Part shown: positions 1,907-50,533 of the stretch, piece after piece
Numbering within the stretch: the stretch's first letter is position 1
Layout: each line of letters opens with the position of its first letter
Assembly (NCBI GenBank): GCA_016286535.1
Contig: JAEESZ010000006.1
Span: forward strand, 124,001 to 188,000
Source of the DNA: Treponema sp.
Lineage (GTDB): Bacteria > Spirochaetota > Spirochaetia > Treponematales > Treponemataceae
DNA length: 64,000 bases
Direction of reading: 5' to 3'
Notes under the pieces: generated by a model
What the model saw: the letters and a program-made list of their open reading frames with translations, nothing else
Told to the model about the DNA's origin: nothing
Database searches by the model: none
Made by a program: the position numbers and the translations under genes

Positions 1907-4099
1907 ATGAATTTTATCAGCAAATCCCTAACACGTCAGCTTACACTTTATGTAGGTCTCGCCTTATTCACATTACTATCTTTATGTATAGCCTTTATTA
2001 CCAGAATGGTAAACACATCTTTTACAGATGTATCTAAAAACTATCTTATTTCTACAGCAGAACGCTACGGAGAAAGTACTGCAAAAATTCTTACAATGGA
2101 ATACAACATTGCAAAAACACTTCAGGCTTCTTTAGAAAGATATGAAGATATTCCCGAAGCAGAAAGAAGAACTTATATCAATAACCTGTTAAAACACACA
2201 TTGGAATTAAATCCGGATTTAGTCGACGCCTATTGTGTATGGAAAGAAAATGCACTGGATGGACTTGATCACCTTTATAAAAATTATGACGAAACCTATG
2301 ATGAAACAGGCCGTCTTATACCATATTGGACCTATGATGGTTCTAAAATTGAATGCTGTGCCCTGACAGATTACGAAGGCAGCTTCTGGTATGAAGAACC
2401 AATGAAAAAGAACAAGGGCATTCTGATTCAGCCTAACTTATATGAAGTTGGCGGCAAAATGATGTGGGTTTGCGGCGTTGCCTTCCCTCTTCACAACAGC
2501 AAAGGCCAGATTATGGGTATGCTGGGTGTAGATATGTCTCTTAACTCCCTTTCTTCAATCTTAAAGGAAGCAAAACTCTATGAAAGCGGCTATCTTTCAC
2601 TCGTGGCACATACAGGTCTTATTGCAGTAACAAAAAATTCAAAAGATGAAGGTCAGTTAAGCAAAGATTTTTCTTCAAAAGAGACTGCAGCTCTTTTTAC
2701 AAAGTCTGCTAAAGATAAAACTCCCTTCCCAATCAATGGAATTGAAGACAATAAAAAAATCACAAAATATTACAAGCCTTTTACTGTAGGTGATGCTGAT
2801 GAGGTCTGGTTTTTAGGAGTAAATGTTCCTACAAAAGAAGTTTATAAAAGCGGAACTAAAATTGTTGCAAATGTTGTAATAATTTTCCATTTGACCTTAA
2901 TTGAGGTAATCCTTTTAAGCTATTTTATTATCCGAAGAGTTTCTAAAGATCTTCATAAGGGTGAACTTGCTATGAAGAATATTGCCCAGGGTGATGGAGA
3001 TTTAACTGTTCGCATGGAAGTAAAAAGCTCAAATGAACTTGGCCGTATGTTCACTTACTTTAACGAAACCATGAAAAAACTTCAGAATTCTATTGGTCAG
3101 GTAAAAGATGTAAGTATCACCATGCAGGATCAGAGTGTTGATCTGAGCAACAATATGAACGATACAGCAGCCGCAGCAAATCAGATTACTGCAAATATTG
3201 AAAGCGTAAACAGACAGATTCAGCTTCAGGGACAGAACGTTATGGAAGCAACAGAATCTATGTCTTCTGTAAAATCTTCTGTAGAAAATCTTGTAAGCGA
3301 TATTCAGAGTCAAAGTTCCTGCGTAGTAGAATCTTCTTCTGCAATTGAAGAAATGGTTGCAAATATCCGTTCGGTAACAGGAATTCTTGAAAAGAACAGT
3401 GATACAATCAAAGCTCTGGAAGCTTCATCAGGAAGCGGACGTTCCAGCGTAGAAGGAACTGTTCTTGCCACAGATAAAATCAAACAGCAGTCAGAAACCC
3501 TGCTTGAAGCAAGTAACATCATTCAGAATATTGCCAGTCAGACAAACCTTCTTGCCATGAATGCGGCAATTGAAGCTGCCCACGCCGGAGATTCAGGAAA
3601 GGGCTTCTCTGTAGTTGCCGACGAAATCCGAAAGCTGGCAGAAGACTCTAATGAACAGGGTAAAACAATTACAAATAACCTTACAGAAGTTCTTAAGAGT
3701 ATTAATGAAGTTGCTGATTCTACCAATAAGCTTCAGGAAATCTTCTCTGAAATTTACGGTCTTGCCCAGCAAGTTGCCCAGCAGGAACTTACAATTATGA
3801 ATGCCATGCAGGAACAGTCGGAAGGTGGTACTCAGGTACTGGAAGCCATTAAAAAGATTAATGATATTACGGAAAACGTTCGCTCTGGTGGACACACAAT
3901 GCAGAGTGAAAGCAATGCTGTAAACGAAAAAATGGAGCATCTTGCCCGTCTTACAGATGAAATTATGGCCAGCATGGAAGAAATGGCTCTGGGTATGGAA
4001 AACATCAATAATTCCATTAACTCTGTAAACGATCTTACCCGTAAAAACAGCAGTAATATCGAGATTCTTGGTACAACTGTAGATAAGTTTAAGGTATAA
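1907..4099 (+). CDS. Methyl-accepting chemotaxis protein with periplasmic dCache-type sensor
   Basis: This 730-residue receptor senses an extracytoplasmic ligand and signals to CheA/CheW. One membrane segment lies near residues 14-33, followed by a ~280-residue periplasmic region with [12 protein letters not shown] and [10 protein letters not shown] segments typical of double-Cache domains. A second membrane segment (about 318-343) leads into a HAMP linker and a long coiled coil. The signalling hairpin tip is clear near 540-580: [19 protein letters not shown] followed by [18 protein letters not shown]. The ligand cannot be predicted; dCache receptors often bind amino acids or organic acids. 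It is probably transcribed alone from the promoter at 1851-1879. There is no C-terminal CheR-tethering pentapeptide. Confidence 0.95.
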
Positions 4100-44654: not shown

Positions 44655-45641
44655 TTAATCTGACCAGCTTCCGGTCCTGATTTCATCAGCAATCCTCATG
44701 TAACTGTCGTAGCGTTCCTGTGTGATTTTTCCTTCGCTTACGGCATTGCGGATTGCACATTCCGGTTCGGACTCATGCCTGCAGTTTAAGCCGAATTTGC
44801 ATTTTCCTACAAAAGGTTCAAATTCCCTAAAATACAGGGCAAGATCTCCGGCCTCTATATCATCTAAAACAAAGCGGCGGATTCCCGGAGTGTCTATTAT
44901 ATTTGCAGTTCTGCCAACAACTCCCTCGGTAAGGGTTTCGTTCAGGGTAAGGTGAATTAAAGTTCCCTTTGTAGTTGTATGACAGCCTCTTCCATATTTT
45001 TGAGAAAGGCTTCCGGTTTTTAAAACACAGGAATTATCCATAACGTTTATTAAGCTGGACTTTCCAACTCCAGACTGCCCTACAAAGGCGCAGAGTCTGT
45101 CTTCGAGCAGTTCTGCAAACTCCCGCATTCCTTCCCCGGTTTTTGCAGAGATTCTTAAAACCTTGTAGCCTAAATCTTCCCAGATATTTAATCTTTCATC
45201 AATTTTTGCAAACTCTTCTTCGCGGCCGTCAGTCTGCATATTTTCTGCAAGATCCCATTTATTGCAGACAATTACAGGAGTAATACCCTGGTGTTCAGCC
45301 TGAGCCAGAGCCCGGTCTGTAAAGCGGGGACGGAAAGGCGGCTCATCCGGAGTGGTAACCAGAATCAAATAATCCAGATTACTTGCCAGAAGCTGAGGAC
45401 AGCGGCCCTTTACGTTCCACCTTAAAAAGGTATTTTTTCTTTTTTCAAGAGAAAGTATCTGACCTTTTTTTTCGTTGATAGGATCTTCTTCAATCTCTAC
45501 AATATCGCCCGGTGCAAGAGGATTATAAAACTGCTTGTCAGATTTTAAAACTTTGCCCTTTATTGTACAATTTCTGGTAACAGAATCTTCACACTCAATG
45601 GTAAATAAATTGTTAGTTCCAGCAATAATCAGACCTTTCAT
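44655..45641 (-). CDS. rsgA: Ribosome small-subunit-dependent GTPase RsgA
   Basis: RsgA checks late 30S assembly and releases RbfA. The 328-residue protein has an N-terminal OB-fold, then the circularly permuted GTPase motif order typical of the family: NKWD (G4), GQSGVGKSS (G1) and DTPGIR (G3). The C-terminal zinc finger has CKFGLNCRHESEPEC. It sits two bases upstream of mutS2 and 15 bases downstream of the ion transporter, as part of a long minus-strand operon. Confidence 0.95.
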   Translation of the reverse strand: MKGLIIAGTNNLFTIECEDSVTRNCTIKGKVLKSDKQFYNPLAPGDIVEIEEDPINEKKGQILSLEKRKNTFLRWNVKGRCPQLLASNLDYLILVTTPDEPPFRPRFTDRALAQAEHQGITPVIVCNKWDLAENMQTDGREEEFAKIDERLNIWEDLGYKVLRISAKTGEGMREFAELLEDRLCAFVGQSGVGKSSLINVMDNSCVLKTGSLSQKYGRGCHTTTKGTLIHLTLNETLTEGVVGRTANIIDTPGIRRFVLDDIEAGDLALYFREFEPFVGKCKFGLNCRHESEPECAIRNAVSEGKITQERYDSYMRIADEIRTGSWSD

Positions 45642-45656
45642 AAATCTCCTGTAAAA

Positions 45657-46982
45657 TTATGCCCACAAGCCCCAGAGAACCAGAGCTGCAGTTCCTGTTG
45701 TAAGAAGGGTAAATGGAACCGCAACCTTAAGCCAGGTTGCAAAGTTCATCTTGTAGCCCTCTTTTTTTACAATTCCCATGGAAACTACATTTGCAGAAGC
45801 ACCAAAAGGTGTAAGGTTTCCACCAAGACAGCTTCCAATTAAGAGGGCAAACATAAATAATTCTTTATCTATATTCATTGCTACAGCCATACTGCCCGCA
45901 ACAGGAAGCATGGCAATAATATAAGGTACGTTATCAACAAAGCCGCTTATAAATACAGAAACAAGAAGGATGATGATAAAACCTAACAACTTGCTTCCGC
46001 CGCAAGTCTTTGCAAGGAAAAGGGCAAAATCATCTAAAAGGCCAACTTCGCTGATTGCACCTACAACAACGAAAATTCCAAGCAGGAAGAAGATTGTTTC
46101 CCAGTCCAGTCCCTTTATTAATTCCCAGACTTCCCTACCGTTTTTCTTCTGATTAAAGATATACCATAAAACGCAGATGATTCCTAAAGACAGAACATAA
46201 AGTCCGCTCAAATAGGCAAAATCAGTTTTTATAAAGGAGATGCCTGCAAGTCCAAAAATCATAAGCAGAAGAATTGCAAATGGAACCCAGGAAATTACAG
46301 GGGTCTTTTCAACTTCAATCTTATCTTTTCCAAGGCGGGCAAAAAAGCAGTAAAAGTAAATACAGCCTACCAGTAAGCCAGCTTGAATTATAAAGAAGAT
46401 TGAGAGGGTTCTGTTATGAATAAAGAAGTCGTTGAAGTTATAATTTGCATAAGAAGCAAAAATCATGCTTGGAGGGTCGCCAACCAGGGTGGCAGTTCCT
46501 TCCAGGTTAGACATAACTGCAAGGCCAATCATAAAGTTTGTAGGGTTGATTTTTAAAGTCTTGCACAGGGCTAAGGCAATTGGAGCCATTACAAGAACAG
46601 TTGCAACATTTTCTACAAAGATAGAGATAATACCTGTCATTGCAAGAATCAATACAATTGCAATTCCTGTATTACGGCTCTTATTTATTATGGAATCTGC
46701 AATTCTTGCCGGCACATTTGAGTACAAAAAGAGAGCGGCAATTGTCATGCTGCCAAGGTAAATTAGAATTACATTCCAGTTTATAATTTCAAAAAGAGAA
46801 TGACTTAAAGCATAAAAATGACTTTCTGAAGCCTTAAAAATCTGCCCCGGAAAAATCATTCCAAGAATAATTACAGCAAGGCCTGCAATGCTTGTAAAAA
46901 TAACTTTTTTATCCTGAAAGATAATTACAAGCAGGTACATTAAAACTGCAAGCGCTAAAATTACATATTTTAACCAATCCAT
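45657..46982 (-). CDS. ArsB/NhaD (ion transporter superfamily) permease
   Basis: The 441-residue membrane protein has about eleven hydrophobic segments and the ion-transporter-superfamily motifs MSNLEGTATLVGDPPSMIFAS near residues 155-175 and FVDNVPYIIAMLPV plus GGNLTPFGASANVV in the second half. This group includes arsenite, Na+/H+ and P-protein-like transporters; the ion cannot be assigned. It is seven bases downstream of the cNMP-binding gene, which could link it to the same control. Confidence 0.9.
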   Translation of the reverse strand: MDWLKYVILALAVLMYLLVIIFQDKKVIFTSIAGLAVIILGMIFPGQIFKASESHFYALSHSLFEIINWNVILIYLGSMTIAALFLYSNVPARIADSIINKSRNTGIAIVLILAMTGIISIFVENVATVLVMAPIALALCKTLKINPTNFMIGLAVMSNLEGTATLVGDPPSMIFASYANYNFNDFFIHNRTLSIFFIIQAGLLVGCIYFYCFFARLGKDKIEVEKTPVISWVPFAILLLMIFGLAGISFIKTDFAYLSGLYVLSLGIICVLWYIFNQKKNGREVWELIKGLDWETIFFLLGIFVVVGAISEVGLLDDFALFLAKTCGGSKLLGFIIILLVSVFISGFVDNVPYIIAMLPVAGSMAVAMNIDKELFMFALLIGSCLGGNLTPFGASANVVSMGIVKKEGYKMNFATWLKVAVPFTLLTTGTAALVLWGLWA

Positions 46983-46988
46983 ATTTTA

Positions 46989-47507
46989 TTATTCTCCATT
47001 TTCTATTTCATCAAACAGGGCCTGATACAAGGCTGCTTTATCGCGGTTTGAACTTCTTATTGTCTGAGACATTTTTTGTGCCAGATGCAGAATTACCCTG
47101 TAGCCCAGCAAAGGCTCTTCGTCACAAATGCTTATAAACTTTTTGGAAGAAAGGGCAATAGTTGTGCAGTCGCAAAGGGCTGTTACCGTAGCCGAGCGGG
47201 TATCTTTACTGATTAAGGCAGTTTCGCCAAAGAAAACATTCATGTCGGAAGTAAGGTTTGCAAGGGCAATTGTGTCTCCTGCAGGAGTATTACGAACAAC
47301 CTGAACAGAACCTTTATAAAGGATATAGAATAAATCTCCTGTATCCCCTTCTTTTATAATGACTTCTCCGGCCTTATAGTTTTTTAAGACCATATTTTCG
47401 TAAACTTTTCTTAAAATTCTGCAGTCGTTTTCATTATCTGCCTTAAAATCAGAAAACAATTCTATCTGTAAAAGTTTAGGTAATACGTTCTCAAATGTAT
47501 CCATCAT
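46989..47507 (-). CDS. Stand-alone cyclic-nucleotide-binding protein
   Basis: The 172-residue soluble protein is a CAP-type sensor domain without a DNA-binding helix-turn-helix. It shows the beta-roll KAGEVIIKEGDTGDLFYILYKGSV and a phosphate-binding cassette FFGETALISKDTRSATV, with the Arg needed for phosphate contact. It probably binds cAMP or cGMP. It lies six bases after the channel gene and seven before the transporter gene, so it may act as a separate sensor subunit for one or both; this is inference. Confidence 0.88.
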   Translation of the reverse strand: MMDTFENVLPKLLQIELFSDFKADNENDCRILRKVYENMVLKNYKAGEVIIKEGDTGDLFYILYKGSVQVVRNTPAGDTIALANLTSDMNVFFGETALISKDTRSATVTALCDCTTIALSSKKFISICDEEPLLGYRVILHLAQKMSQTIRSSNRDKAALYQALFDEIENGE

Positions 47508-47513
47508 ATTTCT

Positions 47514-48683
47514 TTACCCCCTTACGAAAATAGCCTTTGTATTCGCCTGAATTACAAAATCATCTTTTGGAGTAAGAAGCACTTCATTACTTTTTAAGGT
47601 TTTTACTTTTTTAAGATTATCTACAACCTTTTTAATGTCAGGATTTTTCTGAGCCTCGCGAAGGGCATCCTTTCTACGTTCATGAAAGTTTCCTGTATTA
47701 AGCAGAAAGCCGATTAAGATTCCGGACTTTTCATTCAATGAATCCTTATATTCACGGCAGGTCTTTCCCCTGTAGGCCGAAGGGATTGCTTCAATTAAGA
47801 TTCCGGTTTCTGCATCATCTCCAATTAAAGCACGAATTACATTACTGTAACCCATGCCGGAAGATGCAGTTGCAAGAAGGCTGTGTTCGTATTCCTGGGT
47901 AAGGATTATTTCGTCGCAGTGAGCCATTTCCAGATGCTTTTGAAATTTAGAATCAATTAATTCTGCTGCAATATAAAGGCCCGGATTAATGCCTTCCATT
48001 GTCAAAACAGACAAAACGGTTCTTGAGTCAATCTCCAGGTCAGAATAACTTTTTGAACGGTCAGAAATTACAAGAGCCCTTACGGCATCCTTAATGTGAG
48101 CTTTATTTAATACAGCCTCATCAGAAAAATCTCCGGAAATATAATTGATTTCCTTAAATCTTCCTATTGAGCGAATCTGTTCAATATGGTCCGGAGCTTC
48201 ATTTACCAGAACAATCATATCCGGAGTAATATCGGGATTTGAATTAAGAACACTGTCCAGAATTTTTTCAAAGCCGGGACGCCATCCGCACAATAAAAAA
48301 TGACCTTTCATTTTCTTTAACCTTTTTAATCCTTTATCTTTTTTCATCTGCATATTCATAAAGACAGATGCAACCTTACCGGTAATAACACTTAAAATTG
48401 CCATGCCAATGAGCAGCTGAACAAGGGCGGCAGATCTTCCACCCAGAGACTTTACACAATAGTCATAGTAGCCGGCAAAAACGGTAACCAGAGTAAACCA
48501 GACAGAATCGAAGGGTGTTTCAATTCCACTTTCTGTCTGGGTTTCTGTTTTATAAACTGCAAGGGTAGTTAAAACGATGATGGCAAAGAGCAGAATCCAT
48601 AAATAGGTCAATGGATTTTTTAGAATATAGAGTAAACTTCTCTTAAAATGCTTTAATCTCTGTGACTTTTTTTTATTCTGCAT
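47514..48683 (-). CDS. Pore/RCK ion-channel-like protein with altered selectivity filter
   Basis: The 389-residue protein has a basic N-terminus, a membrane helix (LTYLWILLFAIIVLTTLAVY), a pore helix and filter region (SVWFTLVTVFAGYYDY), an inner helix (LLIGMAILSVITGKVASVF) and a C-terminal NAD-binding RCK/TrkA-N-like domain (HFLLCGWRPGFEKIL). This is the layout of two-segment potassium channels, but the TVGYGD filter reads FAGYYD. Ion selectivity is therefore uncertain. It lies 14 bases downstream of argS and six bases upstream of the cNMP-binding gene. Confidence 0.85.
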   Translation of the reverse strand: MQNKKKSQRLKHFKRSLLYILKNPLTYLWILLFAIIVLTTLAVYKTETQTESGIETPFDSVWFTLVTVFAGYYDYCVKSLGGRSAALVQLLIGMAILSVITGKVASVFMNMQMKKDKGLKRLKKMKGHFLLCGWRPGFEKILDSVLNSNPDITPDMIVLVNEAPDHIEQIRSIGRFKEINYISGDFSDEAVLNKAHIKDAVRALVISDRSKSYSDLEIDSRTVLSVLTMEGINPGLYIAAELIDSKFQKHLEMAHCDEIILTQEYEHSLLATASSGMGYSNVIRALIGDDAETGILIEAIPSAYRGKTCREYKDSLNEKSGILIGFLLNTGNFHERRKDALREAQKNPDIKKVVDNLKKVKTLKSNEVLLTPKDDFVIQANTKAIFVRG

Positions 48684-48697
48684 AAAAATGACCGCTT

Positions 48698-50533
48698 TTA
48701 CATCTTCTCAAGGTAAGGAACCAGAAGAAGATTCATGGCATTCTTTATTACCTGCAGCGTACATTCTGCAAGGTATAAACGGGCGCCTGCAAGTTTTTTA
48801 TTTTCCTCTGCCAGAGAAACAATAGGACAAGTCTGATAGAATTTACTGAAAGCCTTTGCTGTATCATAAACGTAAGAAGCAACTCCACTAGGATCCAGAT
48901 TCTCTGCAGCCTTTTCTACAACAGCAGGATAAGTACCAAGCAGTTTGATTAATTCCCATTCATCGCCGGACTTCAAAAGAGAAACGCTTTCTTCTGAATT
49001 ATCTGACTGAATTCCGTTTTCCTTTGCCTTTGCAAGAATTGAATTGATTCGGGCACCCATATACTGAAGATATGGACCTGTATTTCCATTAAAACTGAGG
49101 GATTCTGCAGGATTAAAAAGCATATCCTTGGCAGGACTTGCCTGCAGCATATAATAATGAAGGGCACCAAGGGCAACTTTTTCTGCAACCTCATCAGCAT
49201 CTCCAACTTCGCCGTCGCGGCCGCGTTCTTTAATTGCGGCAAGAGCATCTGCGTGAAGTGAATCTACCAAATCATCTGCATCAACTACAGTTCCTTCGCG
49301 GCTCTTCATACGTCCGCTTGGAAGATTTACAAGACCATAGCTCAGGTGGAATAATTTGTCTGCCCATTCAAAGCCAAGTTTTTTAAGAATGTGGAAAAGA
49401 ATCTTAAAGTGATAGTTCTGTTCACTTGCAACAACATATACCAGCTGATTAAAAGCCCAGTCATTGTGGCGGCTAATTGCAGTTCCAATATCCTGGGTAA
49501 TATAAACTGAAGTTCCATCCTTACGAAGAAGAACTTTTTCGTGATTATCTTCGTCCTTACCCTTACCAACAACATCTGTAACATCTATGCGGACAGAACC
49601 GTCCTCAGCCTTAAAGAAAACTCCTTTTTCAAGTCCCTTTAAGATTTCACCTTTACCTTTAAGGTAAGTTTCGCTTTCAAAATAGTATTTGTCAAAGCTG
49701 ATGCCGGTACGGGCGTAAGTTTCCTTTACACCGTCAAAAGTCCAGCCGTTCATTTTTTCCCAGAGGGCATGAACTTCAGGATCTCCGGCTTCCCACTTAA
49801 TAAGCATATCTTCTGCCATCTGATTAGCTTCAGGATGAGCAGTTTCCGGCTTGTCTTTTTCGCCTTTAAGATATTTATCAAACTCAACATAACACTGACC
49901 AACAAAATGGTCACCTTTCATTCCAAGGCTTTCCGGCGTGTCGCCCTTTGCCTCATGGAAGAGCTTATAAGCCAGCATAGACTTACAGATATGAACACCG
50001 CGGTTATTAATAAGGTCAACCTTGAAAACTTCAGCCCCCGCAGCCTTAAGAATACGGCTAACCGATTCTCCAAGTGCATCGTTGCGGACATGTCCCAGAT
50101 GCAGAGGTTTATTTGTATTAGGAGAAGAAAATTCTATCATTACACGACGGCCTTCCAGAGGCTTTTTTCCGTCGCTGTTAATTGAACCGTAAGTGTCGCC
50201 CTGGGCTTTAACTGCCTCAAGAATTGGATAGGCAGCGCCTGCTTTATCAAGTTTAATATTTACATAAGGACCAACGGCAAGGATTTCTCCAAGAGAGGTC
50301 TGATAAGAGGCTGCAATTTTTGCAACTTCCTGGGCAATCTGTACAGGAGCCAGTCTGAAAGCCTTTGCAAAAACGAACATTGGAGAACCTAAATCTCCCA
50401 TTTCTGGATTTGGTGCATTCTGAACAACAATTGAATCTGCTGATACTGTATCTGCCTCTATTGATTTTTCTTTACAAAACTCTCCGAGAGCTTTTGCTAT
50501 AATTTCTTTAAATTCTGCTTTTGAATCTGCCAT
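48698..50533 (-). CDS. argS: Arginyl-tRNA synthetase
   Basis: ArgS charges tRNA-Arg. The 611-residue class I synthetase has the N-terminal Add1 domain, the HIGH-like motif PLHLGHVRND near residues 139-148, NNRGVHICKSM, the DIGTAISRHNDW and SEQNYHFKILFHILKKLG segments of the Rossmann fold and a C-terminal helical anticodon-binding domain. GRMKSREGTVV takes the place of KMSKS, as is common in ArgRS. A promoter TTGAGA-17-TATAAT and a GAGGAA ribosome site lead it; it may head the operon running to the methyltransferase gene. Confidence 0.96.
   Translation of the reverse strand: MADSKAEFKEIIAKALGEFCKEKSIEADTVSADSIVVQNAPNPEMGDLGSPMFVFAKAFRLAPVQIAQEVAKIAASYQTSLGEILAVGPYVNIKLDKAGAAYPILEAVKAQGDTYGSINSDGKKPLEGRRVMIEFSSPNTNKPLHLGHVRNDALGESVSRILKAAGAEVFKVDLINNRGVHICKSMLAYKLFHEAKGDTPESLGMKGDHFVGQCYVEFDKYLKGEKDKPETAHPEANQMAEDMLIKWEAGDPEVHALWEKMNGWTFDGVKETYARTGISFDKYYFESETYLKGKGEILKGLEKGVFFKAEDGSVRIDVTDVVGKGKDEDNHEKVLLRKDGTSVYITQDIGTAISRHNDWAFNQLVYVVASEQNYHFKILFHILKKLGFEWADKLFHLSYGLVNLPSGRMKSREGTVVDADDLVDSLHADALAAIKERGRDGEVGDADEVAEKVALGALHYYMLQASPAKDMLFNPAESLSFNGNTGPYLQYMGARINSILAKAKENGIQSDNSEESVSLLKSGDEWELIKLLGTYPAVVEKAAENLDPSGVASYVYDTAKAFSKFYQTCPIVSLAEENKKLAGARLYLAECTLQVIKNAMNLLLVPYLEKM

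Follow-up and report, generated by a model that had tools for sequence, protein, structure and literature searches.

A Treponema RCK channel with a shortened selectivity filter is paired with a separate cyclic-nucleotide-binding protein, a two-gene module found across Spirochaetota

The window, the whole 64,000-nucleotide stretch of Treponema sp. DNA that we analysed (contig C21 of genome G000, 2.5 Mb), carries a tight run of six genes on the minus strand, in the order argS-channel-CNMP-transporter-rsgA-mutS2, with gaps of 2-15 bases by ORF coordinates. A first-pass annotation made from the sequence had singled out three of these genes, encoding a pore protein with an altered filter, a free-standing cyclic-nucleotide-binding domain (CNBD) protein (hereinafter CNMP) and an ion transporter, as a possible split ion system. 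Its coordinates and lengths for the three ORFs and the 6-base gap between channel and CNMP are all correct on the minus strand; the observation is real and its interpretation is borne out in part. Because the six-gene run is so tight, co-directionality alone is weak proof of a shared function, and membership is decided here by comparative survey; the argS-like gene, for instance, adjoins the channel in some relatives only, as judged by locus comparison. The features are listed below.

44655..45641, minus strand: rsgA, housekeeping neighbour (RsgA_GTPase 5.4e-44, Pfam)
45657..46982, minus strand: CitMHS/ArsB-type transporter, 441 aa (Pfam); a neighbour, judged to lie outside the module
46989..47507, minus strand: CNMP, 172 aa, solo cyclic-nucleotide-binding domain (PF00027, AF2, Foldseek)
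46995..47114, minus strand: long C-terminal helix of CNMP, residues 132-171 (AF2; conservation in 160 sequences)
47187..47234, minus strand: phosphate-binding cassette of CNMP, FFGETALISKDTRSAT, residues 92-107 (conservation in CNMP orthologues)
47514..48683, minus strand: channel, 389 aa, TM1 - pore helix/filter - TM2 - RCK (Pfam, PDB sequence match, Foldseek, AF2)
47517..48314, minus strand: RCK domain of the channel, residues 124-389 (Slo-like_RCK, TrkA_N; MthK RCK structures matched by Foldseek)
48462..48479, minus strand: filter FAGYYD of the channel, residues 69-74 (DNA read directly; spacing and residue counts across relatives)
48543..48614, minus strand: TM1 of the channel, residues 24-47 (helix of the AF2 model)
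48698..50533, minus strand: ORF upstream of the channel, which we take from the look of its protein to be an argS-like housekeeping gene (sequence read)

The channel protein comprises a TM1-pore helix-TM2 domain followed by a C-terminal RCK domain. Ion_trans_2 (PF07885) scores above the Pfam cut-off, and Slo-like_RCK (PF22614; 2.7e-10) and TrkA_N (PF02254; 7.5e-9) match residues 124-236 and 157-261, respectively. MthK, an archaeal Ca2+-gated K+ channel, is the top match both among PDB sequences (2.3e-10, residues 14-303) and by Foldseek (1.1e-15). The AF2 model, built as a single chain and of moderate quality (pLDDT 75, pTM 0.43), contains helices at residues 24-47, 57-70 and 80-114. The window channel thereby has the TM1-P-TM2-RCK layout common to the MthK type, which also includes GsuK and Slo/BK. 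It differs from MthK in that its filter is not TVGYGD, the T-x-G-Y-G signature being absent here and present in 84 canonical relatives, and in that its operon adds a solo CNBD gene. The MthK Ca2+ site (D184/E210/E212) has an equivalent in part only: in the sequence alignment, E210 pairs with E241, which is kept in 114/114 relatives that share the altered filter (hereinafter variants), and E212 is left without an acidic counterpart.

CNMP matches PF00027 (1.2e-20, Pfam) and lacks a DNA-binding domain. Its AF2 model (pLDDT 91) ends in a 40-residue C-terminal helix, and its nearest folds in the PDB by Foldseek are the CNBDs of CRP, PKG and HCN-type proteins. CNMP also matches the CNBDs of MloK1 and SthK. 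The Gly-Glu and Arg of the nucleotide pocket are present as in CNBD-gated channels, but in trans, on CNMP; among 160 sequences, G94 is kept in all 160, E95 in 155 and R104 in 156. The PDB search with the CNMP model returned many CNBDs and did not separate cAMP from cGMP binders, and Ser105, the residue after the pocket Arg, is not diagnostic of either ligand in CNBD families. The C-terminal helix is about as conserved as the pocket (N154, D156, L160, A163 and L164 are near-invariant in the 160 sequences), and it is a candidate element for docking on the channel or for dimerization of CNMP. Class III cyclase domains, with 12 matches in the window genome and at least one in each of 59 relatives, are present, and therefore a source of cyclic-nucleotide ligand exists; since they occur in 59/59 relatives, a correlation between cyclase and channel is uninformative. 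The four CNMP sequences of the 160 that lack both Glu and Arg all belong to genus g21 (L187-L190), where E95 is replaced by K and R104 by H and the adjoining channel keeps a canonical K+ filter; judging by the lost pocket residues, CNMP may act without nucleotide there. The window genome also encodes two proteins of ~400 aa with two CNBDs each (C10:2141-3019 and C7:38616-39419), which are further candidate cyclic-nucleotide effectors.

The association of channel and CNMP was examined in a genome survey of the phylum, in which 121/393 genomes and 67/168 genera contain a channel match, and in a named-locus survey listing the 79 nearest loci; the two overlap partly, with some genomes in both. CNMP lies directly downstream of the channel on the same strand in 107/108 scorable loci of the genome survey, spanning 55/56 genera and 31 families, and in 74/75 scorable named loci. 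The sole exception is one genome seen twice (L046/L133), in which intact tandem channels have no CNMP at the locus and tblastn recovers no remnant of one there. A fused channel-CNBD protein was found at none of the surveyed loci, and all loci scored as adjacent have CNMP as a gene of its own. Channel and CNMP are a two-gene module across Spirochaetota. The earlier reading of the CNBD as a stand-alone protein linked with the channel is upheld by this adjacency and by the kept pocket residues. Of the proposed linkage of all three genes, the channel-CNMP half stands and the transporter half does not, the latter being mostly unlinked.

As a separate observation, a third gene recurs directly downstream of CNMP in several of the loci L022-L029 (families f3/f4; e.g. 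L026 3127-3774, plus strand); its product is probably secreted and carries a PRGFRGIELGMS-type motif.

The filter is changed as the first-pass annotation had said, FAGYYD being present and GYG missing. That annotation aligned FAGYYD with TVGYGD as strings of equal length, whereas the new filter is in fact one residue shorter: the distance from W62 in the pore helix to the post-filter Asp/Glu is one residue less than in canonical relatives (TTVGYGD), while that from the Asp/Glu to Gly82-Arg83 in TM2 is the same. A plain substitution of TVGYGD is rejected, as the spacing is that of a one-residue deletion. The 201 distinct channel sequences fall into 84 canonical ones, 115 with A-[GAN]-Y-[FY]-[DE] and two of a third type (FITGVV/FITGVF). 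Residue counts, which cover near full-length sequences (114 variant, 80 canonical), give Ala70, Tyr72, Phe/Tyr73 and Asp/Glu74 in 114/114 variants each and Gly-Tyr-Gly in 80/80 canonical relatives; the Pro after the filter is kept in only seven variants, and the TM2 glycines are kept in 114/114 (Gly93) and 99/114 (Gly102).

In a maximum-likelihood tree computed with the filter columns removed, all variants fall into one clade (support 100) nested among canonical sequences; the clade also contains one collapsed-filter and one canonical sequence. Pairwise dN/dS values point to strong purifying selection on pore and remainder alike, with pore dN at 0 for T. bryantii-type pairs of loci (dS 0.8-1.0) and also for other pairs (dS 0.6-2.9). 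Because of the single clade and the purifying selection, the filter change is taken to be single, old and maintained, and by this tree it arose once, in one Treponema branch. A chance or pseudogene origin is rejected, since the motif, which also occurs in cultured isolates, is fixed in more than 100 sequences and dN falls far short of dS; the T. bryantii strains NK4A124, B25 and XBD1002 are among the closest named relatives listed, all of them Treponema. A filter restored in relatives had been named as grounds for doubt: the outgroups and same-genus paralogues are indeed canonical, but the variant clade is not, except for one pore swap. The filter change is limited to part of one family and the channel/CNMP split is phylum-wide and older, a distribution that marks the two as separate events.

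Many variant loci contain two tandem channels with different filters, typically AAYYD/AAYFD in the first copy and AGYFE/ANYFE in the second. At L145 (4007-7386) and L179 (3557-6990), a channel with a collapsed filter (FITGVV and FITGVF, respectively) and its CNMP are followed by a canonical channel with a CNMP, and the collapsed-filter copy of L145 groups with the variant clade. These pairs are possible heteromers, and collapsed-filter copies beside canonical ones would be compatible with non-conducting regulatory subunits. The genome G014, closely related to that of the window, has a second channel copy, of canonical type and with a decayed pore part, next to an intact CNMP (L060, G014:C19, 5877-7210). 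Together, the mixed tandem filters, the L145/L179 pairs and this decayed copy suggest an early duplication in Treponema followed by differential loss. At L191 (G394:C61, channel ORF ~2945-4057, minus strand), a 530-aa frame combines an RCK from the variant clade with a Kv-type 6-TM voltage sensor and a TTVGYGD pore, and CNMP still adjoins. The sequence of this chimera indicates that the lineage regained a K+ filter by way of a Kv-type pore, and that RCK and CNMP stay paired when the pore is exchanged.

From these data, we infer that the channel is a spirochaete MthK-like, RCK-gated tetrameric cation channel with its second-messenger sensor on a subunit of its own. CNMP, probably a dimer formed via the long C-helix, would bind cAMP or cGMP through the conserved pocket and dock on the RCK gating ring, passing the ligand signal to the inner (TM2) gate and thereby opening or closing it; in MthK, RCK-domain ligands act on the gate. 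In the Treponema branch, the carbonyl ladder of T-V-G-Y-G would be lost through the one-residue deletion and the replacement of Gly by Tyr/Phe. Going by known K+ channel structures, a four-site K+ ladder cannot form in such a pore, and the variant is for that reason expected to pass cations without K+ selectivity, being non-selective or favouring Na+ or Ca2+. We assign the full mechanism, a trans-acting cyclic-nucleotide sensor on the RCK together with a cation pore that is not K+-selective, a probability of roughly 0.45, the sensor part being more likely than the selectivity part. The phylum-wide pairing, pocket conservation, cyclases, MthK match, conserved new filter, TM2 glycines and L191 swap speak for it. 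Against it count the collapsed filters of L145/L179, the pocket loss in g21, the absence of CNMP at L046/L133 and the moderate AF2 channel model; operon pairing could also reflect a looser link than a complex. A more elaborate form, in which the shorter filter has its own ion preference (Na+, Ca2+ or none), the separate CNBD sensor binds the RCK and the tandem branches form heteromers with two filters, is a tentative proposal with the odds somewhat against it.

The main rival holds that the variant is a non-conducting pseudo-channel, whose membrane part would anchor a signalling or regulatory RCK-CNMP unit, and that it would have begun as a dominant partner of a K+ subunit with a canonical filter. 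The loss of canonical GYG throughout the variant clade fits such a regulatory protein, as do the tandem arrays at L145 and L179, where a filter-less and a canonical copy have a CNMP apiece, and the decayed canonical-type copy that G014 retains beside an intact CNMP. A dead pore, however, need not keep a filter that hardly varies among 114 sequences, holds a fixed spacing and is under purifying selection, nor the TM2 glycines. Moreover, no P-loop channel besides that of the window was found in the window genome (assembly 93% complete), and therefore no canonical partner subunit for it to regulate. We regard this reading as unlikely, although it is the strongest competitor of the conducting channel.

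A less probable alternative is that CNMP is not a channel subunit at all, acting instead as a co-expressed cyclic-nucleotide effector, for example on another target when the ion balance shifts. The lack of any channel-CNMP fusion at the surveyed loci and the other CNBD genes of the window genome agree with this, but a fixed order and adjacency over 55 genera would be unusual for a loose link, and the adjacency is retained through tandem duplication and pore swap. It is still harder to credit that some filter geometry not yet recognised keeps the channel K+-selective, which would make the family ordinary K+ channels that have their CNBD in trans: all outgroups and same-genus paralogues have the canonical filter and the variants keep the post-filter Asp/Glu and the TM2 Gly, yet the second filter Gly is Tyr/Phe in 114/114 and one residue is missing, so that a four-site ladder would not be expected to form.

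The transporter is best described by CitMHS (PF03600; 5.6e-63, 213.5 bits) with an additional ArsB match in Pfam; against the NCBIfam ArsB model it scores 61.8 bits, far from the cut-off of 457, and it is not assigned to the ArsB efflux pumps. It is linked to the channel in 5/110 loci of the genome survey (the window and 4/109 others) and in 12/79 named loci. Its orthologue occurs as a mostly unlinked, single-copy gene in 46/59 relatives, 20 of which have no channel (Fisher p = 0.06 for co-occurrence), and in T. bryantii-type loci rsgA follows directly after CNMP. The third member proposed by the first-pass annotation is accordingly dropped: a three-part ion system of channel, sensor and transporter is extremely improbable. 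The three genes sit side by side on one strand in the window and in 16 more locus records, among which some genomes appear twice, but elsewhere the transporter is mostly unlinked and often found without a channel.

Among known systems, SthK and MloK1 likewise tie a CNBD to a P-loop channel; there the CNBD is fused to the C-terminus of a 6-TM channel, whereas here that fusion is absent and a separate gene accompanies a 2-TM RCK channel. To our knowledge, the known CNBD channels carry the sensor in the same chain, and a trans-acting CNBD for an ion channel would, if true, be the first. In KtrAB and TrkAH, KtrB and TrkH form the pores, and the regulatory subunit belongs to the RCK proteins rather than to the CNBDs. 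For KtrAB, that subunit is encoded as a soluble protein apart from the pore (PMC5449183). These systems offer a precedent for a separate regulatory subunit, which in the window is a CNBD.

The plant channels CASTOR, POLLUX and DMI1 are likewise RCK-gated and without TVGYG, and CASTOR is reported to be Ca2+ selective with the filter AD(S/A)GNHA (PMC6697748). They differ from the window channel, with its FAGYYD, in that filter, in a longer soluble part and in being eukaryotic; membership in CASTOR/POLLUX is rejected on the filter and because no Castor/Pollux Pfam match appears up to E = 1. NirBac, a K+-channel family member with an unrelated filter, is non-selective (PMC4607889), has a KirBac-type cytoplasmic domain and bears a filter unlike that of the window, and the same dissimilarity holds for NaKTs, a non-selective 2-TM Ca2+-activated member with the filter LPMGNGPLSP (PMC5052707). 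Altered filters in K+-channel families and separate regulatory subunits such as those of KtrAB and TrkAH are thus already known. The literature searched yielded neither an RCK channel with a solo CNBD as its constant partner nor this shortened-filter clade, which is no proof of novelty.

If the phylum-wide pairing has the meaning proposed here, it would show control of a channel by cyclic nucleotides through a separate subunit. The variant clade would in addition constitute a natural experiment in the loss of K+ selectivity: the event is single, the canonical sister group includes same-genus paralogues, the 115 descendants are conserved, filters differ between tandem copies and one lineage has acquired a Kv-type pore. 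It is testable, since cultured Treponema bryantii strains carry the variant.
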